14,426 bases of DNA from Candidatus Sumerlaeota bacterium (GCA_016928995.1 JAFGJS010000035.1:1-14426); one strand, 5' to 3'; counted from the first letter of the stretch, positions 527 through 14,426 are shown. Program-made: numbers and translations. Notes: generated by a model not told the origin, from the sequence alone.

Positions 527-3500
527 TCATTGGACCGGCGTGCCGGGCGTTGCGCTGCCGTCAACACGGGTATAAGCGGCCGCGCCGGAAGAGCGCCAGT
601 ACATGGCGCGTTCGGCGATCACCGGCACAGTGCAATCGACCAGGGCCGCGGCGGAGATCGTGCCGCCGGTTTGCGGAATAACGTCGTTGGCCTTCACCGT
701 GACGCGCGTTCCAGCGGGAATGACCACAGGATCGGACGGATTTTCGGGGTTTTGATATTCATAGGTCGTGCCGTCGTTGTCCGAGAGTTGGAATTGCACG
801 GATAGTACGCCGTCCGTTTCGCTGGGATTGTAAATCAGAATGAAATCCTCGAATTGCGAACTGCCGCCCGTGGCGCCTTCCGCGAAATACCATTTGTTCG
901 AGGGCTCCTGGATGCCGATCGAGTTCGTGGCGCCGGAGCGGTTCGCGAAGCCGGCGGAGATCCAGTACATCGAGCGCTCAGCCACGACCGGGGCGTCGCC
1001 ATCGGTCTGCACCTTGATGGCGAATCCGGGATTGCTTTCCATTCCCTCGACCATTCCGATGTCGATGGTCTCGCGTTCATTGGCCGCAATGGACTGCACA
1101 TGAGTGACCGGAGCGCCGCCGCCTGTCGGCAGGAAATAAACGTTAGCCGTCACGTCGTAGTCATTGGGATTGGCGATCGTCAAATAAGTCTTGAAGGAGC
1201 TGTGCGTCGCGCCTTCGGCGAAGTACCAGGTGGAAGATGGTTGCGTGGCGCCCATCGTATTGTGGCCCCAGACGCGGTTAAAGTTATCCAGCGCGCCATA
1301 CATCGTGCGCTCGACCACGACGCCGCTGCCAATACCGCTGGATGCAGCCGCGGTAATCTCCATGGAGAATTGAGAGTTTGGCACGTAGCCGGCGGCGTCC
1401 ACCGTAATGCGGGTTTGTGGATCGACTTTCAGTTTTGCCGTGACATTCGTACCGTCTTCAACAAGGAAGTCGATTGTGATCAACTGCGTTTCAGGTTTGG
1501 GATTGAAAATCGCCAGTTCGGTTTGACGTCCATTAGCCGTGCTGCCTTCCGCAAAGCACCATTCTGCGGAGGAGGTGACCACGGCCGGACTGGCATGACC
1601 GCCGATCCGGTTCACCCCATTCTCATCCCAATACATGGCGCGTTCCAGGATGATCGGAACGGGAGAATCTCCCGTGCTTTGGATGAGAACACTAAAGGGC
1701 TGGCTGATGTCGAGATTGGAACTCATCTGCAAATCGTCAGAGGCCAAAAGCTCGTTCAGGTTCATCGTTTTACGCGCTCCGGGAGGAATGGACACCGGAG
1801 TATCGAGCCAAGCCATGCCGCCGCCTTCAAAGTAAAAAATAGGATCGAAAAAGGCGTAGTAATAATCCGATCCGTTGGCCAGGGTCAGATGGGTTTCGAA
1901 GTCATCCGAGATTTTGCCCTGCGCCAGCATCCCGGTCAGCATGTCCGCCAGGGCGACGCTGCGTCCTGCTGAAGATGCATAAGAAGTGACCACGGAAAGC
2001 GAAGGCGTCAGGATCACCAGATCGATTGATCCGGGATTGGCGCCGTCTTCGAGGATGATGCGCAATGTGATGCTTGCGGAAAGCGAACTGGTGTTAATCC
2101 AGGAGACGGTTTCGAAACTGCCGTTGAACGATGAGCGGGTCAGCGTCACGTCGTTGCGAATGATCTCCAGCGAGTAGTCATACAGGGCGGAGTCGAAGAA
2201 GCCGTTGACGATCAACTGCGAGTTCGGCGGGACGTTGATCGTAAAATCGCGCTGGTTGAAAATCTCAATATCATCGGTGGTGCCCAGCGTCAGGTTTTGC
2301 GATGGAAGCGCGGAGAATTTCGCGATCCATCCTTCGTACATGTTTTGTTGCATCGTTTGGTAGGCATTCACACTGCACCAGAAATCGTTCGAGACGGTGG
2401 AGCCGCCCACAACAATATCATTGGACGGATCAAGAACGACGGAGAGGCAATAGTCGTCATTGGAGCCGCCGTAATGCGCGCCCCAGAAGAAATCGCCGCC
2501 GCGGGTGAAGGCGCCGATGTAGGCGTCGGTGCTGTCCGGTTCTGTTTTGAAGGGATAAACCGGGGTTAACATGGCGTCCCAAACGAATGGACTGTCGATG
2601 TTTCCGGTTCCGCAATAAACGATTTTGTCATTATCGGAAATTGTAGAATCGTAGATGAAAGTATCCTCAACGATAGAAGTAAAACTGGACCAGACGAACA
2701 TTCCGTTGTGATCAACACGGCAGACATAACCCGATCCCGTAGACTGATCAGGTTCAACAAACCGAATCGGAGGCGTTGTATATTTCGCATTGCCCACGGG
2801 GAAATCCGATGCAGTCTGGCCCGCGGAGCGGTATGTATTGCCCGTGATATAAACTTCGGCAGTGTCGGTTGAGTGAATCCGGATACGACTATCCCCGGAA
2901 GAAATTCGACCTGTGCCACCCCAGGCGCCGGGGCCAACCGAGAAACGGTCGCCTTCGGAACCGAGTGAATTATAGAATCGCGACATTTCGTACTCGCCTG
3001 CGCGAGTGGAGAATTTCACAAGGAACATTTCGGGATCTGGCCAGGCCTCGGAATAGGTCGGTGAAGTGAGATTGGGATTATCAAGGAATGCTATGCCGGT
3101 GGTGGTGAATGTATCGACGCCGGTTGTTTCCACATCAAGACTGCCAGTGACTGGAAAGCCAAAACTGCCGTTGCCGTTGGAATAGGTATATCCAACCACA
3201 TAAACATTTTGCGCCTCGTCGTGCGCGATGTCCGTGGCAACGTCATATTTGGTGCCGCCGAGGTACGTGCTCCAGCTCAAACCGCCATTTTCGGTCAAGC
3301 ATACAATGAAACCATCCGGCGGAGGATCGTAGTAATAGATTGTGCCGATAAAATCGTCGTCTGGATTGCTATCGGGATCATACGCGTAATAATACGATGT
3401 CCATGAGGAGTTGTCACTATATGTGCCCATAAACCAGCTTTCAGATCCTCCAGAGTTGGCAGTGCCAAAAGCCACGGGTTGAAGCCACTCTTGATTTGCC

Positions 3501-5026
3501 GCGTAGATTCCATCGGGTCCGACTTGATCGCCGATGCGAAACCAATTGAATCCAACGTTAAAGTCATCAGCGGCAGTTGAACCGCATACATACACGAATT
3601 CGCGATCTTGCATCGATATGACATCAAGACCATAACATGCGTCGTCTCTTCCCGGATGAGCGTCTCCGCCAACGACAAAAGCCGCGGAAGGATTCCTCAT
3701 GGAACCCGGTTCCGATGTCGGTTGACTGTGCTCCGTGCCGCCAATGAATGTGCCCCAGATAAAGCTGCCGTCACTGGTAGCCATTTTAAATAAAAAACCA
3801 TCGGAATGGAAATAGTTTGGATCTGAGAATGATGACTGCAGCGTCAGATTGTTTCCAGTCGCCACGCCAACAGGAAAGTCGGCGAATGTCGTCCAACCGC
3901 AAACATAGAGGGCGCCATCTCGGCCAAATTCCGCATCAAATGTGTATGCTGCTTCCCAGCCTGAATTCGTAATTTCAATGATATTTTGCCAGACCGGAAT
4001 TCCGGTACGCGTCATTCGGGTGATCCAGTAGTCGTTGCCGTTGCGCCAGCCGAAGGTGTATAGATTGCCGCTTAAATCGGAACGGATTAATTCAATGCCA
4101 TCGCCGCCGATGCCGGTGGTGTAGTAAAGGTATGTGGACCATGTGACGCTGGGATCGATCACCAGCGGGAGTTGCGAATCGTATTCGCCTGTGATTTGAA
4201 AGCCATAGGTCTTGTTGTCGATCAAGCGATATTCCGCTTCCACTTTGCGGCGTTCGCCGTTCACTTCCTGATAAATGTAAGGCTTGGAATCGGTCAAGTC
4301 GCCGGTTGGAGTTTCGACGACGATTTGTCCATGAGAATCGATTTTCACCTGACGCGCGCCTTCGCAACGCACCTGGATTTGTTTCCAGTCCGCGCCAGGA
4401 TTCAAGTGATAGTCCAGTTTCACGCCGTTGTTGTCCGTTTTGACCACGACATCAACGCCGGGATACAAGCCGGAATAGCGCAATTGGCGGTACGTCGGAA
4501 TATTCAGGAACTGCTTGTCCGGTGTTTTGCCTTTGTAGTAGTTGAGTTTCATTACAGCCTGATCTTCAGGCTGAGGATCAACGTCGCGGGAGCCGGGAAA
4601 ACTGTAGTGCACTGTCGAGCGACGTTCGGTCTTGCCGGTTTCAGCGAGATAATTGAAAATCTCGTTCTGTTTTTGCCGGGCTCCCATGCGTTTCACCTGG
4701 CCGTCGGAGTTCTTCTGCTCCATGCGTTGATTGATTTCCGCCCAGTCCTCGTCGGTCAATTCTGGAGGCAGCACCAGATTGAAGTCGAGTCTTGATTTCC
4801 CCGCATTCAACTCAACGCCCTTGGCTTCCAGGCGGTATTGCACGTCAAAACCTTCGCATTGCCCTTTGTTTTGAGCAAAGAGAGGCTCCTGTTTCATGGC
4901 GGGATAGCCGCCGGGCGATTCAACATCGGCGCTGAGCGATGCTTGAACTGCGAAGAGCATGCTGAGAGCCGCCCAGATCGTCATCGCGCGTTTGGATCTG
5001 GATACGGTTGAAGTTTGTTTGAACAT
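527..5026 (-). CDS. Secreted DUF7948/SBBP-type beta-propeller protein with PPC-like domain and four-module C-terminal tail
   Basis: This 1499-residue protein has a signal peptide: basic residues 10-13, a hydrophobic core at about 15-30, and likely cleavage after LSA near 33. Residues about 48-292 resemble the DUF7948 domain that precedes SBBP propellers (FAQNKGQ near 50, Y-x-G-[IL]-Y-P-G-V-D at 184-192, LPLVIDPSVTWSTYL at 286-300). Residues about 293-906 carry degenerate SBBP blades; the clearest is at 588-614 (YLGGTKYDVATDIAHDEA), with another at 851-877 (HYGGSNDDYCLSVVLD). Residues about 912-1005 look like a PPC domain (FETVSWINTS at 971-980). Four modules follow, at about 1035-1153, 1156-1264, 1267-1374 and 1378-1490, the last three opening with W-[CY]-F-A-E-G. 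There is no enzymatic motif, so binding or surface display is the likely role. AGGAG lies 10 bases before the ATG. It is the second gene after the protease, 70 bp downstream with no terminator between. Confidence 0.93.
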   Translation of the reverse strand: MFKQTSTVSRSKRAMTIWAALSMLFAVQASLSADVESPGGYPAMKQEPLFAQNKGQCEGFDVQYRLEAKGVELNAGKSRLDFNLVLPPELTDEDWAEINQRMEQKNSDGQVKRMGARQKQNEIFNYLAETGKTERRSTVHYSFPGSRDVDPQPEDQAVMKLNYYKGKTPDKQFLNIPTYRQLRYSGLYPGVDVVVKTDNNGVKLDYHLNPGADWKQIQVRCEGARQVKIDSHGQIVVETPTGDLTDSKPYIYQEVNGERRKVEAEYRLIDNKTYGFQITGEYDSQLPLVIDPSVTWSTYLYYTTGIGGDGIELIRSDLSGNLYTFGWRNGNDYWITRMTRTGIPVWQNIIEITNSGWEAAYTFDAEFGRDGALYVCGWTTFADFPVGVATGNNLTLQSSFSDPNYFHSDGFLFKMATSDGSFIWGTFIGGTEHSQPTSEPGSMRNPSAAFVVGGDAHPGRDDACYGLDVISMQDREFVYVCGSTAADDFNVGFNWFRIGDQVGPDGIYAANQEWLQPVAFGTANSGGSESWFMGTYSDNSSWTSYYYAYDPDSNPDDDFIGTIYYYDPPPDGFIVCLTENGGLSWSTYLGGTKYDVATDIAHDEAQNVYVVGYTYSNGNGSFGFPVTGSLDVETTGVDTFTTTGIAFLDNPNLTSPTYSEAWPDPEMFLVKFSTRAGEYEMSRFYNSLGSEGDRFSVGPGAWGGTGRISSGDSRIRIHSTDTAEVYITGNTYRSAGQTASDFPVGNAKYTTPPIRFVEPDQSTGSGYVCRVDHNGMFVWSSFTSIVEDTFIYDSTISDNDKIVYCGTGNIDSPFVWDAMLTPVYPFKTEPDSTDAYIGAFTRGGDFFWGAHYGGSNDDYCLSVVLDPSNDIVVGGSTVSNDFWCSVNAYQTMQQNMYEGWIAKFSALPSQNLTLGTTDDIEIFNQRDFTINVPPNSQLIVNGFFDSALYDYSLEIIRNDVTLTRSSFNGSFETVSWINTSSLSASITLRIILEDGANPGSIDLVILTPSLSVVTSYASSAGRSVALADMLTGMLAQGKISDDFETHLTLANGSDYYYAFFDPIFYFEGGGMAWLDTPVSIPPGARKTMNLNELLASDDLQMSSNLDISQPFSVLIQSTGDSPVPIILERAMYWDENGVNRIGGHASPAVVTSSAEWCFAEGSTANGRQTELAIFNPKPETQLITIDFLVEDGTNVTAKLKVDPQTRITVDAAGYVPNSQFSMEITAAASSGIGSGVVVERTMYGALDNFNRVWGHNTMGATQPSSTWYFAEGATHSSFKTYLTIANPNDYDVTANVYFLPTGGGAPVTHVQSIAANERETIDIGMVEGMESNPGFAIKVQTDGDAPVVAERSMYWISAGFANRSGATNSIGIQEPSNKWYFAEGATGGSSQFEDFILIYNPSETDGVLSVQFQLSDNDGTTYEYQNPENPSDPVVIPAGTRVTVKANDVIPQTGGTISAAALVDCTVPVIAERAMYWRSSGAAAYTRVDGSATPGTPVQ
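557..1924 (-). repeat. Four tandem WYFAEG-type modules, C-terminal tail of the propeller protein
   Basis: Four imperfect protein modules of about 108-119 residues lie in tandem, at roughly 1924-1568, 1561-1235, 1228-905 and 895-557. The usual module opens with W-x-F-A-E-G-[SA]-T, continues with an [IL]-x-N-P strand, a central [RK]-x-T-[IV] strand, and ends with V-x-[AV]-E-R-[AST]-M-Y-[WG] and a Gly-rich turn. The first module has lost the opening WxFAEG motif but keeps the LERAMYW end. I believe the motif belongs to the DUF5719-like group seen in several bacterial secreted proteins; this assignment is from memory of the motif. Confidence 0.85.
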
Positions 5027-5096
5027 CTTTATAAACTCCTCTTCCCTTCCGCCTGTGGGATGAATGGTTATTTTTCTATTTTAGGTCCGTCCCGTT

Positions 5097-8000
5097 TTAA
5101 TCAATCTTCACACCGCCGACTGCGTGCCCGCCAATGCGGCTTTCAGTCAATGACACCGTCGAAACTCCCGGGAATGACGTGGCGCCGCCGCTCCAGTACA
5201 TCGCTCTTTCCGCCAGGATCGGCACGCCGTTCAGGCTGACGATTTTCGCCGCCATGGACGTGGTGTCCGAACCGGCCGGAACGACCGTGTCGGCGATCAC
5301 GGTGGCGCGGCGTCCGGGAGCGATGTCGAGTTCCTTCGCATATTCCTCGTTTTCACTGAGCACGAACGTGGCTTTGACCGTGGCTGTCGTGGCGGATGGA
5401 TTCGCCAGCGTGATGAAGGATTCAAAGCCGGAGCCGCCGCCAATGGCGCCTTCCGCGAACCACCAGTTCGTGGAGAGGCTGCTGATGCCCGTGGAATCCG
5501 TGCCGCCCGTGCGGTATGTGATGCCGTCCAGTTTCCAGTAGACCGAACGCTCGACGTAGAATTCCGAGCCGTCTAGCGATGTGATTTTTGTGGCGAATCC
5601 GCTGTTGTTAGCCATGCCGGCCACGTCGTTCACTTTCACCGTTTTGCGGCTGTAAGCCGGAACGACTCGGGTGATGGTGACCGGATCGCTGTTCGACGCG
5701 AAAAATTCGTACTGGATCGTTGTATCCACGCTGTTCGGATTGGCGGCCAGGATGAATGTCTCGAAGTTTTTATGCGTGGCGCCTTCAGCCAGATACCACT
5801 CGGACGAGGCTTCGGGGCTGCCCATCGCATGATGGCCCCAGATCTTCGGATAGTTCGTTGTGCCGCCGTACATCGTGCGTTCCACGATGACGCCCGGATG
5901 ACCCGCCGTGATCGTTTGCGCGCGGATGGAGAAGTCGCTTTCCGGCAGGTAATCGCCGGCGTTGATCGTCATGCGGCGCTGCGCCGGAATGGTGATTGTT
6001 TCGGTGAGGTTGGTTCCTTCTTCCACCAGCAGCGTCAGCATGACCTGGACATCGGCCGGGTACGGATTGAGCAATTCGATCTGCGTTTTGCGGTCGGCTC
6101 CGGTGGAGCCTTCGGCGAGGAACCAGTCGCGCGAGGCGCAGTTTACGCCCGCCGCGGCATATCCGTCGCAGCGATAGATGTTCGCTTCGGTCCAGTACAC
6201 AGCCTCTTCAATGGTCACATCCACTTTGTTGAGGCTCATCAAGTAAACGCCGAAGTTATGTTTGCCGCCCATGCCGCGATGTTGAGTGAATCCTCTGTCG
6301 ATGTTGATGAATTCCTTGGCGAAGTTGATCGTATACCGGCTGTTTGCGGGAATTTCGTAGGTCAGCGGAAGCGGCTCGTAATCTTCAAAGTAGACCATCA
6401 CCAGCACTTCCGCCGCGGATTTTGCCGATTCATTCAGCAGGGTCAGATAGGACATGTGATCGTTGTCCGTGCTGCCGCTGGCGAACAGCCAGATGTCGCG
6501 CGCCGCCGAGGCTGCCACCGGCAATTCAGACACAGTCATGGTGTACACGTTCGAGGAAGCGGATGGCGTGAAGTTAAACACGTGTATAAGGATGTTGACC
6601 GCGGCGGCGGTTGTATTGGTCCAGGAGAGGGATTCGTAATCGCCTTGGTTGAAGGATGATCCCAGCAGAACGCCGCTGGCGCTATAGAGTTCCAAATCGA
6701 TGTCGGAAAGCGAGCTGTTGAATTCCAGATTGACGACGAGCTGCATGCCTGGATCCACCGGCACCCGGTAATAATCGTCGTCGCGCAGGACCAGCGATGT
6801 ATAGTTTCCTAATCCAATCGGGGCGGCTGTAACCTGCGTGTCGTTCTCTTCATATCCGTCTTCAAGGTATGTGATGAACATGTTATAAGCGTTGGATGGA
6901 TCGGTTGAGTAAAAATTGAACACGCGGATGATGACGGTGATTGGGGCGCCGGTTGTGTTCAAATAGGAGACCGATTCGTAATCGCTCGTGCCGAACGATT
7001 GCACAAGCAGCGTACCGTATGCGTCATACAGGTCCATGTTGATGTTTGAAGTCGCGTTGCTGAAGTTGATATTGACGATGAGCTGCATGCCCGCGTCCAC
7101 CGTCACGGCGTAATAGTCGTCGTCGCGCATGACCAAGCCTTGATACCATCCCAGTTCCATCGGGCTGTAGGCCGTGGAGAGCGTGTCGTTGTCTTCATAG
7201 GCGTCATCCAGCGGCAGGAAACTGATGGTCAGCGCATAGTTGAGGGGCGAGTCGGGATTGATCACGGTTGAATTCGCCTCGATCAGCACGGCCACCGGCC
7301 CGCCGGTTGTGTTGGCCCAACTCACCGTGCGCCGTAAGGGCTCCTGCTCCGCATAGAATGCCAGGTTCGTGCCGAGGAGCACGATGATCCGCAAATCCAG
7401 AGATGGGTTGTAGTCGCCGTCGGGAAAAGTCGCCGTCACGTTGAGTTCAACGCCGTTCGGCACAGTGACGATGTACCAGTCGGAGTCCCGCAGCACGAGG
7501 TCGTTGAATTGACCTGATGTCAGCTGGGCCGCATCGCCCGAGATGTCATTTTCCTCGAACCGGTCGTCTGTGTCGGTGGTTTCCGTATCAATGCAGAGTT
7601 CATATGACTGAGCGCGCGGACCGTCGACGTACCGGACCTCGACATACAGATTCACCGGGCTGGCCCCGGTATTGGCCCACGCCGCCTCTTCATAGCCGGT
7701 GGGCGAGCCATTAGTGGATGATCCCACCAGAGTCAGGGTCGTCCCGCCGGTGTTGATATAAAGATAAAGATCCAGATCGATGCCGGTATCTGAGGCAAGA
7801 TTTCCGTTGAACGACAATGTGACACCAGTGATGCCTGACGCCGGAGCTGAGAAAACGTACCAATCGTCGTCGTTGGCCTTGCCCGTGAGGCAGCCTTCCG
7901 GCACGCTGGCGGATTGAGTGTATGTGTCGTTGTTTTCATATTGATCTTCGTCGTTGTTGTTCATGTATTGGCTGATCAGCGGATACGTCACGTCAAAGCG

Positions 8001-9437
8001 GCCCCAGTATGTAAGCCCTCCTTCGCAGCCACTGGGGCCAACCGAGCCGCCGAGAAGTTGACCGACCAATCGAAGGTTTTCGCCAAAGAGCGCGGAACCG
8101 GAAGATCCCGGTTCTGGAGTTCCTTTAGTGGGTGTTACTTCCGTATACATATCCGGATTGTATTGCTGAACAACGTTAACGTAGCCCAGCATCAAAGCTT
8201 TATAATCGCCGTAAGGATGGCTGATATTCACCACAAAATCCGCTGAGTCGGGAACATTAGTGGTCCATCCCAGCATGGTGGCGCCTGCCGGCGGCTCCCC
8301 ATCCCCTTCCAGCAGAAACATGTCATTGCCGCCATTCGTCGGACTATAGGCTAGCGTGGTTGCGCCCAATGTGTTGGGGAATTGTTCCGAGATCGGAGAA
8401 TCTCCAAAGACAATGGGAGGAACGTCGCAGTACATCGTCTCGTAATTGTAGACCATCAGCAGGCCGACTTCCGCGTAGTCCGCGCAATCGGCGCCAATGC
8501 AGTGATATGCCGTGAGAATAAAATAGCGTTGTCCTGTGTTATTCAGCAGATTGCCGGTGCACAATCCCCCTCCGCTGATGGAGCAATCGGCGCCGGAGAA
8601 CACAGGGGTTTCCAGCATCATCACCCCGGCTTGTTGAGAAGCGTATGCGGTATAGCAGGTTGGATCGAGATAGCATTCTCTAGGCTCCTTCTCAGGGAGC
8701 GCTCGTTTGGTCGTATTGCGTGAGAGATATTTTGGAGTCTCAAAGTACTGCAAACAGCCGTCGAAAGCCAGGTTGATCCGCGGAGTTTGACCCGGTTGCA
8801 GCAGTTCGGCGGGAACATGGCACTCCAGCACGATGGTGTCGCTCATCACCGGGTGCGCGATTAACAGGCCTTTATTCAGCGGACCGCGATTGGTATACGG
8901 CCCGTACGCCTCATCGGGATCAGAGAAATTGTAGACATTCACCTCAATGCCTTCGCTGAGTTCGAACACGGAAAAATACGGCCGCATCCCAATTGCATCG
9001 GGGGAGTAGACTTTGATATGCCAAACACGACTGCCATCCGGCAGGTCTTCCCATACGCCGGCCGAAGCGCCTTTCAGCGTAACGATCACCTGAGAATCGA
9101 CTCGATTCATCAACGAGACACGTCGCATCCCTGCGTCGTTGTCCGTTTTTCCCGCGGCGCGGAAATTGTCAACTTCCTGCGGATCGAGTTCATTCAAGGC
9201 GACAATCGCATTCGATGTAAAGTTGCGTTGCGCCGATTCCAGGCTGTGAATGTTATTCGTGAGGGGAGAGCGGTATCCCGATCCGTCGACTGGCGCGGAG
9301 TCCATGTAGACGTGACCTTGAGCGTCACGCATGATTTCCGGCGCTTGGGAGTATCCGGATGTCGCCAGGGCGAATATCGCTGCGATCATCATCACGAGAA
9401 TGGTAAGTCGATTGAGCTTGAGAGCTTTGGCTGACAT
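5097..9437 (-). CDS. Secreted trypsin-like serine protease (lysyl-endopeptidase type) with four PPC domains and four-module C-terminal tail
   Basis: This 1446-residue protein opens with a signal peptide (basic residues 4-10, hydrophobic core about 11-27, likely cleavage near SQA 32). Residues about 55-250 form a pro-region-like segment. The protease domain spans about 265-492 and shows the complete triad: His312 in LTAYHC, Asp372 in GNDMFLLE and Ser446 in EPGSSGSALF, followed by RLVGQLLGG. This arrangement matches the Achromobacter lysyl endopeptidase group of chymotrypsin-fold enzymes; substrate specificity cannot be read from this. Several cysteines (285, 293, 313, 318, 337, 471) could form disulfides. 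Four PPC domains follow, at about 497-617, 625-740, 744-858 and 860-971, each opening with an E-[ED/N]-N-D motif. The final 460 residues are the tail modules. AGAGGAG lies 8 bases before the ATG. It is the first gene of the likely operon. Confidence 0.93.
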   Translation of the reverse strand: MSAKALKLNRLTILVMMIAAIFALATSGYSQAPEIMRDAQGHVYMDSAPVDGSGYRSPLTNNIHSLESAQRNFTSNAIVALNELDPQEVDNFRAAGKTDNDAGMRRVSLMNRVDSQVIVTLKGASAGVWEDLPDGSRVWHIKVYSPDAIGMRPYFSVFELSEGIEVNVYNFSDPDEAYGPYTNRGPLNKGLLIAHPVMSDTIVLECHVPAELLQPGQTPRINLAFDGCLQYFETPKYLSRNTTKRALPEKEPRECYLDPTCYTAYASQQAGVMMLETPVFSGADCSISGGGLCTGNLLNNTGQRYFILTAYHCIGADCADYAEVGLLMVYNYETMYCDVPPIVFGDSPISEQFPNTLGATTLAYSPTNGGNDMFLLEGDGEPPAGATMLGWTTNVPDSADFVVNISHPYGDYKALMLGYVNVVQQYNPDMYTEVTPTKGTPEPGSSGSALFGENLRLVGQLLGGSVGPSGCEGGLTYWGRFDVTYPLISQYMNNNDEDQYENNDTYTQSASVPEGCLTGKANDDDWYVFSAPASGITGVTLSFNGNLASDTGIDLDLYLYINTGGTTLTLVGSSTNGSPTGYEEAAWANTGASPVNLYVEVRYVDGPRAQSYELCIDTETTDTDDRFEENDISGDAAQLTSGQFNDLVLRDSDWYIVTVPNGVELNVTATFPDGDYNPSLDLRIIVLLGTNLAFYAEQEPLRRTVSWANTTGGPVAVLIEANSTVINPDSPLNYALTISFLPLDDAYEDNDTLSTAYSPMELGWYQGLVMRDDDYYAVTVDAGMQLIVNINFSNATSNINMDLYDAYGTLLVQSFGTSDYESVSYLNTTGAPITVIIRVFNFYSTDPSNAYNMFITYLEDGYEENDTQVTAAPIGLGNYTSLVLRDDDYYRVPVDPGMQLVVNLEFNSSLSDIDLELYSASGVLLGSSFNQGDYESLSWTNTTAAAVNILIHVFNFTPSASSNVYTMTVSELPVAASAARDIWLFASGSTDNDHMSYLTLLNESAKSAAEVLVMVYFEDYEPLPLTYEIPANSRYTINFAKEFINIDRGFTQHRGMGGKHNFGVYLMSLNKVDVTIEEAVYWTEANIYRCDGYAAAGVNCASRDWFLAEGSTGADRKTQIELLNPYPADVQVMLTLLVEEGTNLTETITIPAQRRMTINAGDYLPESDFSIRAQTITAGHPGVIVERTMYGGTTNYPKIWGHHAMGSPEASSEWYLAEGATHKNFETFILAANPNSVDTTIQYEFFASNSDPVTITRVVPAYSRKTVKVNDVAGMANNSGFATKITSLDGSEFYVERSVYWKLDGITYRTGGTDSTGISSLSTNWWFAEGAIGGGSGFESFITLANPSATTATVKATFVLSENEEYAKELDIAPGRRATVIADTVVPAGSDTTSMAAKIVSLNGVPILAERAMYWSGGATSFPGVSTVSLTESRIGGHAVGGVKID
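5124..6500 (-). repeat. Four tandem WYFAEG-type modules, C-terminal tail of the protease
   Basis: Residues about 980-1438 hold four modules opening with WLFASGST (983), WFLAEGST (1105), WYLAEGAT (1214) and WWFAEGAI (1325). The first ends with VTIEEAVYW and the last three with IVERTMY, YVERSVYW and LAERAMYW. The second module matches the second module of the propeller protein, the third the third, and the fourth the fourth, better than the modules match each other inside one protein. The protein ends soon after the last module (GGVKID) with no hydrophobic anchor, basic tail or known sorting motif. Confidence 0.85.
6525..7949 (-). repeat. Four tandem PPC (bacterial pre-peptidase C-terminal) domains in the protease
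   Basis: Four beta-sandwich modules of about 115 residues each begin with acidic E-x-N-D-x motifs (ENNDT, EENDI, EDNDT, EENDT). They carry a D-[DS]-[DW]-[DWY]-Y strand and end near a [VI]-x-W-x-N-T-[TG] strand (AAWANTG, VSWANTTG, VSYLNTTG, LSWTNTTA). PPC domains are usually found C-terminal to secreted peptidases and are often removed on maturation. Copies three and four are so close that their DNA aligns in register with a period of 342 bp (for example GACGACGAGCTGCATGC at 6732 and GACGATGAGCTGCATGC at 7074), which indicates a fairly recent tandem duplication. Confidence 0.85.
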
Positions 9438-9503
9438 GAAGGGGTCTCCTCTGTATATTTACGTCACGCTCCGCGGCAGCGCTTGTCCCGCAGCCATGGA
9501 TCG

Positions 9504-9537
9504 ATCGAATCGCCCATGGCTTGCATGGGGATTCGAT
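9504..9537 (-). promoter_or_regulatory. Strong hairpin in the leader of the protease operon
   Basis: A 14-bp stem pairs ATCGAATC + CCCATG (9504-9511 and 9513-9518) with CATGGG + GATTCGAT (9524-9537), with a single bulged G at 9512 and a 5-base loop. It lies about 67 bp upstream of the protease start codon. No T run follows on either strand, so it is not an intrinsic terminator. It could be an mRNA-stabilising or regulatory leader structure, or an operator. Confidence 0.5.
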
Positions 9538-9575
9538 ATATTACATTGCTTCTATTTATATTTCACCATAATATC

Positions 9576-9619
9576 AACTCCGCGATTCGCGTGTTTTATT
9601 TCACGCTTTCAGCGGAGTT
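9576..9619 (-). promoter_or_regulatory. Two-tier stem-loop in the leader of the protease operon
   Basis: An outer perfect 8-bp inverted repeat (AACTCCGC 9576-9583 / GCGGAGTT 9612-9619) encloses an inner 5-bp stem (GCGTG 9589-9593 / CACGC 9602-9606) with an 8-base AT loop. The two stems are separated by a symmetrical 5x5 internal loop. This shape is typical of a folded RNA rather than a chance repeat, but no known riboswitch class is recognised. Confidence 0.42.
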
Positions 9620-9634
9620 ATACGTTTTCTCTCC

Positions 9635-9660
9635 GGCGCCTGTGAATTTTCCACAGGGCC
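9635..9660 (-). promoter_or_regulatory. Hairpin near the predicted transcription start of the protease operon
   Basis: GGC + CCTGTG (9635-9637, 9639-9644) pairs with CACAGG + GCC (9652-9660), with one bulged G at 9638 and a 7-base loop. It lies immediately downstream of the second promoter candidate, so it would form the very 5' end of that transcript or act as a palindromic protein-binding site (CTGTG-N7-CACAG). Confidence 0.42.
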
Positions 9661-9666
9661 TTATAA

Positions 9667-9696
9667 AGATTACTGATACCGCCCGATTTCCGTCAA
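9667..9696 (-). promoter_or_regulatory. Candidate sigma70 promoter P2 for the protease operon
   Basis: On the minus strand TTGACG (9696-9691) is followed after 18 bases by TAATCT (9672-9667). The -35 box is five of six and the -10 box is four of six. A start near 9660 would give a leader of about 220 bases containing all three hairpins. Confidence 0.4.
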
Positions 9697-9722
9697 GTTA
9701 TTTTATCGCAGCAAACTAAAAA

Positions 9723-9750
9723 ATTATACCTCGTAAAATGATGGCGTCAT
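9723..9750 (-). promoter_or_regulatory. Candidate sigma70 promoter P1 for the protease operon
   Basis: On the minus strand a perfect TATAAT (9728-9723) is preceded after 16 bases by ATGACG (9750-9745), a four of six -35 box. It lies in the AT-rich core of the 473-bp gene-free region, about 285 bases upstream of the protease start codon. The rest of that region (9751-9910) holds only the weak 9770-9804 inverted repeat and no convincing gene. Confidence 0.42.
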
Positions 9751-9769
9751 AGCCTGTTGACGGTTTTCT

Positions 9770-9804
9770 CGCTCGTATATTAACAGAGCATTTTCAAACG
9801 AGCG
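9770..9804 (-). other. Weak inverted repeat between the cytochrome gene and the protease promoters
   Basis: A 7-bp repeat (CGCTCGT 9770-9776 / ACGAGCG 9798-9804) flanks a 21-base AT-rich spacer. It sits 20 bp upstream of the -35 box of P1 and about 107 bp after the cytochrome gene. It lacks a T tract, so it could be an operator or a weak transcript end for the cytochrome gene; I cannot tell which. Confidence 0.25.
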
Positions 9805-9910
9805 CCCCTGAATCAGCAGTCTTGCAGAGTATGTGCATCGCTTTCTAGAGCAACTTAACAAATTTCAGCAATCAATGCATTTTCGATATCAAACCGCCCA
9901 TTTTTTTTGA

Positions 9911-11527
9911 CTATGGGCGATCCTGAGCCGGATCCTCCTGTGCTGTTTTTTGGTGCGATATGCTCTTAATATCTTGCATAAAGTCGAAGTGACTGTCGTT
10001 ATCCACGTCATGGCATTGCACGCAAAACGACTCGTCGAATGCTGTGCGCATGCGATGTTTATACGTCTGTACACCAGGTTGGTTAGTCTTCCGTGAAAGG
10101 GCCAGCTGAAGCAGCATGCGCTGCCGTTCATCGGTGTGCAGATATCCCGGTCCGTGGCAGACTTCGCATTGCACGTCGCCGAGATGCGGCGTTTTTTCCA
10201 GGTTGTAGAAGCCTCCCTGCATATATCCCACCGTGTGGCATTTCAAGCAATCCGGATCATAATGCCGCTTTTTTTCCCGCAAAGTCTCCAGCGCATGGGC
10301 GTGTTGCGTGGCTTGCCAGGATGTATGTTCCTGTTCATGACAATTGGCGCACATCCGGACGCCCACATAGCGGTTTGATGGCTGATAAGCTTCCGGTGGT
10401 TTGTATTCCGCCAGGTAAGCGGGATTTTTCCCTCTGTAGCGCTGGATTGTCTCGGAGGTATATTCATCGAGCAGCTGTGTCAGATTAGCTTCCCGTGCAT
10501 AGCCCGAAGGCACGGGCACGGTGGTTAAAGCAGCCATCCGGGCTGCTTTACCAGCCGCTTCCCGGGTAATGGCCATTTCCTGAAAAAATCGGCCGCGATA
10601 GCCCGCCGTGACCATTCGATTGGGTCCGATGTGGCTCTCTCGAGGCTGGCCCAAGTAGTGAAATCCATTCATCACCAAGTCGACTGGCGGCATGTTTTCC
10701 ATGATAATTGGCGAGCGGGACGGGTCGCTGAAGAGTAGGACCACGACGATGTCGCCCTCGCGGCGTTGAGTTTGAATAATTTGCCGGGCCGTTTCCGCCG
10801 GATCGAGAAACTTAACCTTGCCGCGGATGTTTTCGGTGTAAAATTCCTCTGTATTGAATTCATCTTTGGGATAGACGTCCGTGATGGGAACCAGCAGCAG
10901 CCTTGCCGGCGGATCGCCAGGCAGATCGATGGTTTTGAAGGTCGTAAAAGCCGGTTTGCTGGTTTCCGTGTCGATGATATTGGCGGAGAGCAGTTCGATT
11001 CCCTGCGCCTGGCTCTGTTCGCGCAGCATCGGCAGCCCCAACGCCAAATCCGACCAGCCGGCGTTGACCAGCCGGTAATCCAGCCGGGCCAGCGCCCGCA
11101 GCACATATTCCGCTTTCAGATGCTCGTGCGCGGTGAACAACGGCGCGGAAAATCCCCCTGCGTCGATGCGAATTTGCGGCGCTCCTTCCCGCTTGAATTC
11201 CCGCAGCAGCGTCGCCTCGCGGTCCACTCCGCCGTATTGCAGCGAGCGGCACTCGCATGGAGCCAGTTCGCCAAAGCGGGCGCCGGAGAAGATCACTGTC
11301 GCAACGAGATGTTCAAATTGCGGCGGCGGCGGCACAACGATCTCCGCATCTGCGGCGGGATAATGATCGTATCCATGAGCCGCCGGCGATGTTGAAGCGT
11401 CATGAGAATGAAGAGGGGAGGAGTCTACCGGTGTTTTCAGGGCGTCGTCCGCGCCTGTGAGCAGCAGCGACAGCGGCGGCAAAAGCAGGGCGACGAGCAT
11501 CAGCGGCAATAAAAATGAACGTTTCAT
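9911..11527 (-). CDS. Periplasmic tetraheme cytochrome c554-type protein with N-terminal phosphoesterase/5'-nucleotidase-like domain
   Basis: I chose the ATG at 11527 (538 residues) because it begins directly with a signal sequence, MKRSFLLPLMLVALLLPPLS; a start seven codons earlier (11548) has no ribosome site and adds an odd leader. A linker rich in His and Ala follows (about 38-60). Residues about 72-315 resemble the UshA-like calcineurin phosphoesterase fold, with the GELAPCECR...YGGVDREATLL signature, a DAGGF strand near 122, NAGWSDLALG near 155 and LLSAN near 180. Usual metal-ligand histidines seem missing. Residues about 385-515 match the cytochrome c554 domain, with four CXXCH heme sites: CANCH 393, CLKCH 427, CEVCH 454 and CVQCH 502. 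Such fusions presumably work in periplasmic electron transfer; the substrate is unknown. No clear terminator follows the gene. Confidence 0.9.
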   Translation of the reverse strand: MKRSFLLPLMLVALLLPPLSLLLTGADDALKTPVDSSPLHSHDASTSPAAHGYDHYPAADAEIVVPPPPQFEHLVATVIFSGARFGELAPCECRSLQYGGVDREATLLREFKREGAPQIRIDAGGFSAPLFTAHEHLKAEYVLRALARLDYRLVNAGWSDLALGLPMLREQSQAQGIELLSANIIDTETSKPAFTTFKTIDLPGDPPARLLLVPITDVYPKDEFNTEEFYTENIRGKVKFLDPAETARQIIQTQRREGDIVVVLLFSDPSRSPIIMENMPPVDLVMNGFHYLGQPRESHIGPNRMVTAGYRGRFFQEMAITREAAGKAARMAALTTVPVPSGYAREANLTQLLDEYTSETIQRYRGKNPAYLAEYKPPEAYQPSNRYVGVRMCANCHEQEHTSWQATQHAHALETLREKKRHYDPDCLKCHTVGYMQGGFYNLEKTPHLGDVQCEVCHGPGYLHTDERQRMLLQLALSRKTNQPGVQTYKHRMRTAFDESFCVQCHDVDNDSHFDFMQDIKSISHQKTAQEDPAQDRP

Positions 11528-11613
11528 GCAGAGTCTCAATAGCAGCATTCAGCTGGTTTCAAGAGTCGCGGGAATTTGGAGCAATGAGCAATATACTCTC
11601 AGAAACTCCATGG

Positions 11614-11668: not shown

Positions 11669-13495
11669 TTATTCCTCGGATCCTTGTTGCTGGCGGGAGA
11701 TCTTCAAAAAGCGATGATGCTTTGCGGTTGGATTTTCCCGCACGTCAAGACCGGACTGGCGCAGGAATTCCAGCAGCGGCGCAACACGGCTTTCCTGCTC
11801 GCGATCCGCCAGTAAAAACAGACTTCCATACCGATCCAGCAGTTTGCCGAGGAATGCGGTCTGCACGCTCTGGCGCTTCACGTCGTACAGGAAGCATGCA
11901 TAAGGCTGATCCGGCCACAGCGAACGATCCTCCAGCCATCCCGCTGGTGGAGCCATGGACTGATGCAAGATTAAATCGCAATACATGTTGATGTTCTTAT
12001 CCACGGGCTCAATCATCGGCGCCACTACGCGCGGGTGGCGCTCCAGTCCCATTAATACGCGATAGGCGACCAGGTCGCGGCCGTAGACGAACAGCGGATA
12101 ATCCGTCGCCGCCACAATCGCGCCCAGGCGGCGCAATTCCGCGTTGTTTTGTTCCGCATGCAGGATTTCCGTTTCATTCGGACGGTGATTTCTCACGCTC
12201 CGATAGACTGGCTTGGCGTGTAATGCCACCATCAATGGCAGCGCGGCCAGCGCCGTGATCGCGAGCTTGCGCCGGATGTTTCCGGCGTCGCGCTGGAGCG
12301 CGCGTTTCAGCGCGAGGCTCCACCCCGCCATGCCCAGCAGCACGATGCACGGATACGCCAGAATCCAAAAGCGCCAGCTGTAAAAGAAATAGAAGTGATG
12401 CAGTGCGAATTGCGTAATCAGAAACAGCGCCAGCGCGACCATTTGCTCGTATAACCGCTTATCCGGCGCTGGCAGCAGCGTTGCCATCCATGATTCCGGT
12501 GCGATGTCCGGTTGCGGCCAGTCTTTGTCGCGCACGCGTTCGATCAACGCCCAAAGTCCGAGCAGCGCCAATGGTATCATCGCCAGCGGACCGAAGGCTG
12601 TGGCCTCGGGTTGAAAACCGAACCAGTCGCGCAGCATCATCAGCGCCGCGGGGTGCGGCTCTCCCATGGCGTCCGAAACAAATGGCGGTTGCCAGAGCTG
12701 ACGCCAGAGGAACGAATTGGTGAAATAATGCCCCCAATGTGCGTAGGAGAATAGGCCGAATCCCGCGCCGGTGTACCCGTTCCAAGTCAATTGCGCCGCA
12801 AACACCGCCGCGCAAGCCGTCGCTGTAGCGGCCAACGCACGCCACTCTCCTTGACGGAAATAGAGATGCGTTCCTGCCATGCACGGAGCCAATACGATGT
12901 ATGTTCCGCGAATTGCGATCAGCAAGCCTAAAACCACGCCTATTGCAGTTCCCAACACATGCAGCCGCCAGCGCGGTTTATCGGGCTGTTCCAGCATCCG
13001 CAGCCAAGCGAGCCATCCGAGCATCGTCAACCCAAACAGCATGAATATAGTTGATTCTTGCATGATGGTTTGTGACATGCGAAAAAATAGCGGAGTGAAG
13101 AGGATCATGCCCACGGCGCCTAGACGCGCCAGCGCGTCGAGGCCGCCAAGCCAAAGCCAGAGCCAGACTGCCAGCAGACCCATGCATATGCCGACAGGCG
13201 ACCATTGATGGATGCCTGCCATTCCCCTCTGCCATCGTGCGGCCAGTTGCAGGAAGAATGGATGCGCTGGCGAATATCGCGAAGGTCGCAGTTGATTGCC
13301 GATTTTCAGCCGCGGATCAAAACCGTGCAGCATCGACGATGCCAGCCATGCCTGTTCGGGGCTATCCGGGCTGGGCATCAGGCGCACCGATCCCGGACTC
13401 GCATGTCCGAAACCATACCACGACGCGACGCTCAGCATCCCGATCAGCGCGGCGCATTCCAGCGCCAGCGCGAACGCTCTTTGTTTTTGTTTCAT
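11669..13495 (-). CDS. GT39/ArnT-like integral membrane glycosyltransferase
   Basis: This 608-residue protein is mostly membrane-embedded, with about nine to eleven hydrophobic helices between residues 10 and 425 and a soluble C-terminal domain of about 170 residues. The first extracytoplasmic loop carries PSPDSPEQAWLASSML (41-56), where the Asp-x-x-Glu pair matches the catalytic-acid position of GT-C transferases. RYSPAHPFFLQL (73-84) resembles the HPPLY-type motif, and MQESTIFMLFGL (145-156) the family's conserved Glu segment. GT-C enzymes of this kind move a sugar from a polyprenyl-phosphate donor to a lipid, glycan or protein on the periplasmic side; the acceptor here is unknown. No strong ribosome site precedes the ATG (only GGCGG). 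It is divergent from sfsA and lies 141 bp upstream of the cytochrome gene. Confidence 0.8.
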   Translation of the reverse strand: MKQKQRAFALALECAALIGMLSVASWYGFGHASPGSVRLMPSPDSPEQAWLASSMLHGFDPRLKIGNQLRPSRYSPAHPFFLQLAARWQRGMAGIHQWSPVGICMGLLAVWLWLWLGGLDALARLGAVGMILFTPLFFRMSQTIMQESTIFMLFGLTMLGWLAWLRMLEQPDKPRWRLHVLGTAIGVVLGLLIAIRGTYIVLAPCMAGTHLYFRQGEWRALAATATACAAVFAAQLTWNGYTGAGFGLFSYAHWGHYFTNSFLWRQLWQPPFVSDAMGEPHPAALMMLRDWFGFQPEATAFGPLAMIPLALLGLWALIERVRDKDWPQPDIAPESWMATLLPAPDKRLYEQMVALALFLITQFALHHFYFFYSWRFWILAYPCIVLLGMAGWSLALKRALQRDAGNIRRKLAITALAALPLMVALHAKPVYRSVRNHRPNETEILHAEQNNAELRRLGAIVAATDYPLFVYGRDLVAYRVLMGLERHPRVVAPMIEPVDKNINMYCDLILHQSMAPPAGWLEDRSLWPDQPYACFLYDVKRQSVQTAFLGKLLDRYGSLFLLADREQESRVAPLLEFLRQSGLDVRENPTAKHHRFLKISRQQQGSEE

Positions 13496-13754: not shown

Positions 13755-14426
13755 TTGTTTTACGAACACCGTTTCCCTCAGCCCCTGACGCCCGGCGTGC
13801 TGATCAAGCGTTATAAGCGCTTCATGGCCGACGTGCAGTTGAAGAACGGCGATGTCGTGACAGCGCATTGCGTCAACACCGGCTCGATGGAGGGCATCGC
13901 GCTGCCAGGCCTCAAGGTCTGGCTCTCTCCGGCGGACAATCCCAACCGCAAATTGAAATGGAACTGGGAACTGGTTCAAAAAGACGGCCAGCTCATCGGC
14001 GCGAACACGGCCCTGCCGAATGCCGCGGTGTTCCAGGCGATTCAACAGCGCCTGCTGCCGGGTTTCAAGCAGTGGACGGAAGCCCGCGCCGAAGTGAAAT
14101 ACAATTCGGATTCACGCATTGATGTGTGGTTGAAGCACCCCAGCGGGATCGAGCATTTCATTGAGATAAAAAATTGCCACTTGTCGTATCCTGACAAGCG
14201 CGCGTACTTTCCGGACACTGCGAGCGTCCGTGCGACGAAGCACTTGCGCGAGTTGGAGAAAAAGGTGCGGGAAGGGCATAAGGCCACGGTGATTTTCTTC
14301 GTGCAGGCGCCTCAGGCGGAGAGCTGCCGCCCCTCCGATGTGCATGATCCGGCATTCGCCGCCACGGCGCGCGAGGTCTGGCGCTCCGGCATTGAATTCA
14401 AGGCGATACTGGCGGCGCCATCGCCA
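13755..14426 (+). CDS. sfsA: SfsA family protein (sugar fermentation stimulation protein A), 3'-truncated by window end
   Basis: Reading from TTG at 13755, 224 codons are open to the window edge; Escherichia coli SfsA has 234 residues, so only the last few should be missing. The family core is plain: VLIKRYKRFMADV (15-27), HCVNTGSMEG (37-46), WLSPADNPNRKLKWNWELVQ, SEVKY-like AEVKYNSDSRIDVWL and HFIEIKNCHL (134-143), then YFPDTASVRATKHLREL. The SRID...EIK residues fit the PD-(D/E)XK nuclease-like fold proposed for SfsA, a DNA-binding protein of uncertain role linked to maltose metabolism in E. coli. The TTG start is supported by GGAG seven bases upstream, by an in-frame TAG at 13713, and by the absence of an in-frame ATG until residue 24, inside the conserved core. 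Confidence 0.93.
   Translation, partial: MFYEHRFPQPLTPGVLIKRYKRFMADVQLKNGDVVTAHCVNTGSMEGIALPGLKVWLSPADNPNRKLKWNWELVQKDGQLIGANTALPNAAVFQAIQQRLLPGFKQWTEARAEVKYNSDSRIDVWLKHPSGIEHFIEIKNCHLSYPDKRAYFPDTASVRATKHLRELEKKVREGHKATVIFFVQAPQAESCRPSDVHDPAFAATAREVWRSGIEFKAILAAPSP

Follow-up and report, generated by a model that had tools for sequence, protein, structure and literature searches.

The window analysed here, a stretch of 14,426 nucleotides, is one whole contig of a 4.55 Mb draft genome. Two adjacent genes on its minus strand, P1 (527–5026) and P2 (5097–9437), are separated by 70 bp, with P2 lying upstream of P1 in the direction of transcription. P1 encodes a protein of 1499 residues, made up of a signal peptide, a DUF7948 domain (PF25778; residues 50–292, encoded at 4151–4879 on the minus strand; Pfam E 2.7e-50), an SBBP β-propeller (PF06739; best repeat stretch at residues 585–617, 3176–3274, minus strand; E 1.7e-8), a weak PPC-like domain and a four-module tail. 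The 1446-residue product of P2 carries a signal peptide, a Trypsin_2 protease domain (PF13365; residues 293–459, 8061–8561, minus strand; E 3.7e-7), PPC-like repeats, the best of which (residues 774–826, 6960–7118, minus strand) matches PF04151 below the cut-off with E 0.027, and likewise a four-module tail. Judged by eye, both proteins start with ordinary-looking Sec signal peptides, so that secretion in itself can be explained without a further export tag; an earlier note on this DNA had named export among the candidate roles of the tail.

Three further genes were noted in the window. In the product of the minus-strand gene at 9911–11548, an N-terminal part that has no Pfam match precedes a multihaem domain of the cytochrome c554 type (PF13435, E 9.6e-15), in which several CxxCH motifs occur. 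The gene at 11669–13495, also on the minus strand, encodes a 608-residue, apparently polytopic membrane protein for which Pfam gave no match at E 0.001. An SfsA (sugar fermentation stimulation) gene on the plus strand, 13755–14426, is truncated at the contig end.

A homologous tail in P1 and P2

The C-terminal end of both proteins is formed by a homologous four-module tail, encoded at 530–1939 in P1 and at 5100–6497 in P2. The arrays had been noticed earlier, with limits at 557–1924 and 5124–6500; their presence holds, while their true extents, as given here, run to the last codon. In P1, modules 1 to 4 occupy 1565–1939, 1232–1564, 896–1231 and 530–895, and in P2 6129–6497, 5802–6128, 5469–5801 and 5100–5468, all on the minus strand, with module 4 ending at the stop codon in each case. 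All modules were delimited by alignment. Module 1 of P1 is degenerate, lacking the WYFAEG start, and scores 93 bits against a single-module profile. The best module of the whole genome is module 3 of P2, with 132 bits.

Aligned position by position, modules 1 to 4 of P1 and P2 score 82, 244, 213 and 190 (identities of 27, 42, 40 and 46%; z-scores against shuffled sequences of 9.4, 25, 21 and 20). All four values lie far above the shuffles, and those of modules 2 to 4 also far above the off-diagonal pairings, which score 36–123, confirming that the two secreted proteins share a common tail whose modules pair by position; the pairing is least clear for module 1. The likeness is visible in the DNA at 1251 and 5821 and again at 1301 and 5871, both pairs being offset by exactly 4570 bp, precisely as had been reported. 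As also stated previously, the N-terminal parts of the two proteins differ, giving no blastp match to each other at E ≤ 1; a weak likeness does reach upstream of the tails, where one PPC-like domain shows 35% identity across 43 residues.

Nine tails in one genome

The earlier note suggested searching a genome of the same species for other proteins ending in the array, and a search of the window's own genome yielded seven more, on contigs C62, C159, C136, C67, C97, C25 and C118, making nine proteins in total. Their N-terminal domains comprise FG-GAP repeats (C97 and C25, with the C136 protein being a truncated close relative of these two), Ig-like Big_3_5 domains (C62 and C159), a PPC domain with BACON (C67) and a cohesin domain (C118). 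A single-module profile, which is unbiased for module count, returned exactly 36 matches in the whole genome, corresponding to nine times four, with none outside the nine proteins. A 36-base DNA match on contig C20 sits in an open reading frame without modules and was taken as chance.

A tree of the 36 modules groups them by position rather than by protein, requiring four label changes where the minimum is three and the shuffled mean is 20.5. The best partner of a module is found at the same position for 33 to 35 of the 36 modules (at most 35/36), and all nine arrays group together in a single clade, apart from those of other phyla (SH-aLRT 99). These observations support the proposal made from the window alone, that the array diversified first and was duplicated as a whole afterwards; within this lineage, the copies came to sit on proteins that are otherwise unrelated.

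The tail turned out to belong to a known domain family. Both window proteins match the Pfam family DUF5719 (PF18986), which we take to be an actinobacterial two-domain ASRAH lipoprotein family, with 37.3 and 30.4 bits against a curated cut-off of 26.2. The same family matches all nine arrays of the genome, and ASRT (PF07100) matches five of the nine. When the single-module profile was compared with all PDB sequences, the only matches were TM1070 (1NC7, E 2.8e-7) and ASRT, the Anabaena sensory rhodopsin transducer (2II7, E 3.5e-4). AlphaFold models of the tails had a pLDDT of 89.1 and a pTM of 0.89 for P2, and a pLDDT of 95.8 and a pTM of 0.94 for P1, showing computationally that the tail is one rigid predicted body. 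Searched with VIA, these models retrieved 1NC7 and 2II7–2IIA first, at an rmsd of 1.4–2.0 with the single best module aligned (for P2, Z 15.9 with an rmsd of 1.7 across 105 residues; for P1, Z 8.0), and Foldseek assigned 1NC7 and 2II7–2IIA a probability of 1.00. Both programs also matched multi-domain Ig-like proteins, including complement and PrgB; we disregarded these because either the rmsd was very high or Z was low.

The ASRAH superfamily was defined by De Souza, Iyer and Aravind, its hallmarks being a Trp with which strand 1 begins and a nearly invariant Asn that closes strand 2 (PMC2739507). In the tail modules the Trp is present, having been lost in module 1 of P1 and module 1 of the C62 protein, and the Asn is found at all four positions in 100% of 239 tetrads. 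With the profile and structural matches, membership of the tail in ASRT/DUF5719 is near certain. The SHExxCxxN pocket signature of ASRT is absent in the tail modules, which have F-E/D-T-x-x-L-x-x-N in its place; ASRAH families other than ASRT are described as each having distinct residues there (PMC2739507). Since the His/Cys signature is missing, any ligand that the tail might bind would differ from that of ASRT.

Solo ASRAH domains form tetramers, while tandem forms occur as dyads or tetrads, the latter known in 2009 only in secreted amidases (PMC2739507). The tail shares with ASRT and TM1070 the module fold and the two hallmark residues, and it would probably also resemble them in assembling four domains; those proteins, however, are stand-alone, intracellular, single-domain homotetramers with the SHExxC pocket signature, whereas the tail has four domains per chain, is exported and has other pocket residues. 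The amidase-fused tetrads, mainly of Chloroflexi, are also secreted, in tandem of four and fused to another domain, but they were described as always accompanying an amidase, unlike the promiscuous tail seen here on many unrelated domains (PMC2739507). The actinobacterial lipoprotein family has two ASRAH domains, special extensions and a lipobox (PMC2739507); despite the significant match of the DUF5719 profile to both window proteins, the tails differ from the family so equated in having four domains and no visible lipobox. The papers of the literature library that we searched contained no mention of DUF5719. The domain family itself is known, and what is new here is a fixed ASRAH tetrad serving as a promiscuous tail.

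The count of four and a predicted ring

Scanning a public genome collection with a profile built from a two-row alignment revealed 78 related loci, mostly in uncultured Actinomycetota, with some in Acidobacteriota and one in a PVC-group MAG; no relatives were found in viral contigs. Ten of the relatives' genomes gave 23 to 252 profile matches each, where one array may give several, and a single 3.9 Mb MAG of an uncultured actinomycetote encodes at least 51 distinct tetrad proteins (30 from retrieved regions and 21 from the scan). Within the window's own class, the tail is present in three of 39 genomes.

Among all retrieved loci, the window's genome included, we counted 225 complete open reading frames with modules. 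Exactly four modules were present in 207 of these, and one contained two separate tetrads, the rest being mostly frameshifted or partial. Arrays of roughly four were favoured by the profile used in the search, although longer ones would still have shown. In 204 of the 225 (about 90%), at most 20 residues follow the array before the C-terminus, in line with its original description as a C-terminal tail; that description falls short for 17 of the 225, in which the array is internal or N-terminal. Here too the count is mostly four, with a partial fifth module scored in three of the 17. These arrays precede, for example, polysaccharide deacetylase, multicopper oxidase, M23 peptidase or GDSL lipase domains, and GH17 is also among the partners examined. 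Stray modules inside cytoplasmic proteins had been named as an observation that would contradict the idea of a shared tail; the internal and N-terminal cases examined carry secreted-type enzymes.

Several individual loci deserve description. The protein with two complete tetrads (L207, 8753–14824, plus strand) has one at each end. At L233, two adjoining tetrad genes on the minus strand (5761–8321 and 8488–11177) are both split 3+1 with overlapping frames at nearly the same place, reflecting either sequencing error or frameshifting. N-terminal tetrads precede regions of about 1000 residues of the same type in three genomes (L198, 8150–12913; L209, 6263–10939; L260, 5477–10405), and the region following the tetrad at L198 has weak multicopper oxidase matches. 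Another genome contains three close FG-GAP/tetrad paralogues (L033, L034 and L031) with near-identical last modules, one of them truncated at the contig start.

Module identity is not maintained between lineages in the way that module number is. Position-specific HMMs built from the window's genome did not classify the modules of other phyla, and a universal module order, or a circular permutation of one, was rejected, as no rotation aligns the modules across lineages. In relatives from other phyla (loci from L056 on), mean identity within an array is 44%, compared with 29% in the window's genome, as if those arrays had been homogenised by concerted evolution. Because the count is kept while the identity of the modules differs between lineages, a structural reason for the number four is favoured. 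This bears on whether the tail might be no more than a passive stalk, a string of independent Ig-like beads keeping the N-terminal domain at a distance from the cell. Many secreted proteins do end in β-sandwich repeats, but the copy number of such a stalk would be expected to vary rather than be fixed at four, and whole-array pTM values of 0.89–0.94 do not suggest independent beads, so that we regard a stalk as highly improbable.

To look for contacts between modules, we computed mean-field couplings between module columns from the 239 tetrads, choosing column pairs on the steps 1>2, 2>3 and 3>4 only and holding out 4>1. The held-out step had a mean z of 2.17, against 0.4–0.7 for the diagonals and 1>4 and a permutation null of 0.00 ± 0.26. 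When columns were required to be variable in all four modules, the ring signal came mainly from a single pair, 35>21, the clearest one, in which column 35 is coupled to column 21 in the module that follows. With phylogeny controlled, this pair scored 24.5 (same) versus 5.3 (opposite) in the ring direction, 6.3 versus 1.9 for 4>1, and 9.9 versus 8.5 for the diagonals. At the pairs 7>50 and 7>80, part of what is seen for 4>1 stems from one large clade. A plain antisymmetric mutual-information test gave no closure signal, and is uninformative because position-specific conservation swamps it.

The same 4–1 couplings would be produced by an intermolecular head-to-tail chain. The tail could thus act as a docking or assembly module, building a surface lattice through head-to-tail 4–1 binding between molecules or through one common partner, and its occurrence on dozens of proteins in one genome would suit such a role. 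An open polymer, however, offers no reason for exactly four modules, and the predicted monomer is already a confident single body (pTM 0.94), making this arrangement unlikely in our estimation. From the models and couplings, it appears likely that the four domains instead close in the order 1-2-3-4-1 into a covalent pseudo-tetramer ring, which would be a single-chain version of the ASRT/TM1070 homotetramer. Closure of this ring would account for the constant number of modules.

A putative binding head for exported proteins

The N-terminal partners of the tail in 80 relatives include SpoIID (11), Amidase_3 (4), NlpC/P60 (3) and SLH (3), as well as propellers, TIG domains and proteases. ASRAH domains have been argued to bind sugars, from gene context and from the ligand in the pocket (PMC2739507). 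The partners of the tail are rich in cell-wall domains, which fits a role as a cell-surface or glycan-binding module; many others (propellers, FG-GAP, TIG and a cohesin domain) give no hint of sugars. We consider such a role probable, with weaker support than the ring. Of the functions proposed for the tail at the outset, anchoring and partner binding stay plausible, as does glycan binding, while export has become less likely.

The export role deserves consideration in its most specific form, that of a C-terminal sorting signal for a dedicated secretion or surface-attachment machine, comparable to the C-terminal domain of the type IX secretion system (T9SS). That domain is likewise a C-terminal β-sandwich (PMC4804311), and it too is common to many secreted cargoes; the prevalent C-terminal position of the tail, and its many unrelated cargoes with at least 51 copies in one genome, are what such a signal would show. 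The T9SS domain, however, is one domain read by the T9SS machinery, whereas the tail comprises four domains forming a rigid predicted structure of about 450 residues, which can be internal and crosses phyla. Among these phyla is Actinomycetota, whose members mostly lack an outer membrane. The Por_Secre_tail profile gives one genome match, below the cut-off and inside a PPC region, and matches none of the nine tails; a search of the genome for the SprA translocon gave no match, as was also the case for the control genomes. Four observations make a sorting signal of this kind less likely, and we think it quite doubtful: by eye, the cargoes start with signal peptides of the Sec type; the tetrad can also be N-terminal or internal; its spread is cross-phylum; and in the window's class only three of 39 genomes contain it.

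The explanation that we find somewhat better than even is that the four ASRT-like (ASRAH, DUF5719) β-sandwich domains of the tail form a ring. This ring would serve as a general surface- or glycan-binding head, tethering enzymes and propeller proteins exported by Sec to the cell surface or to envelope polysaccharide. Because they carry tails of one kind, the protease P2 and the propeller protein P1 would then come to lie at one and the same site. More tentatively, and with the balance slightly against it, the closed ring may be a widespread surface-targeting head used in several phyla, carried by dozens of unrelated exported proteins per genome, its strict count of four dictated by closure, and recognising one shared ligand or partner in the envelope. 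Were the tail such a surface-binding ring, it would provide a testable location and mechanism for a large share of the exported proteome of the tetrad-rich uncultured Actinomycetota, and its quartet rule would represent a clean case of oligomer symmetry setting the number of tandem repeats.
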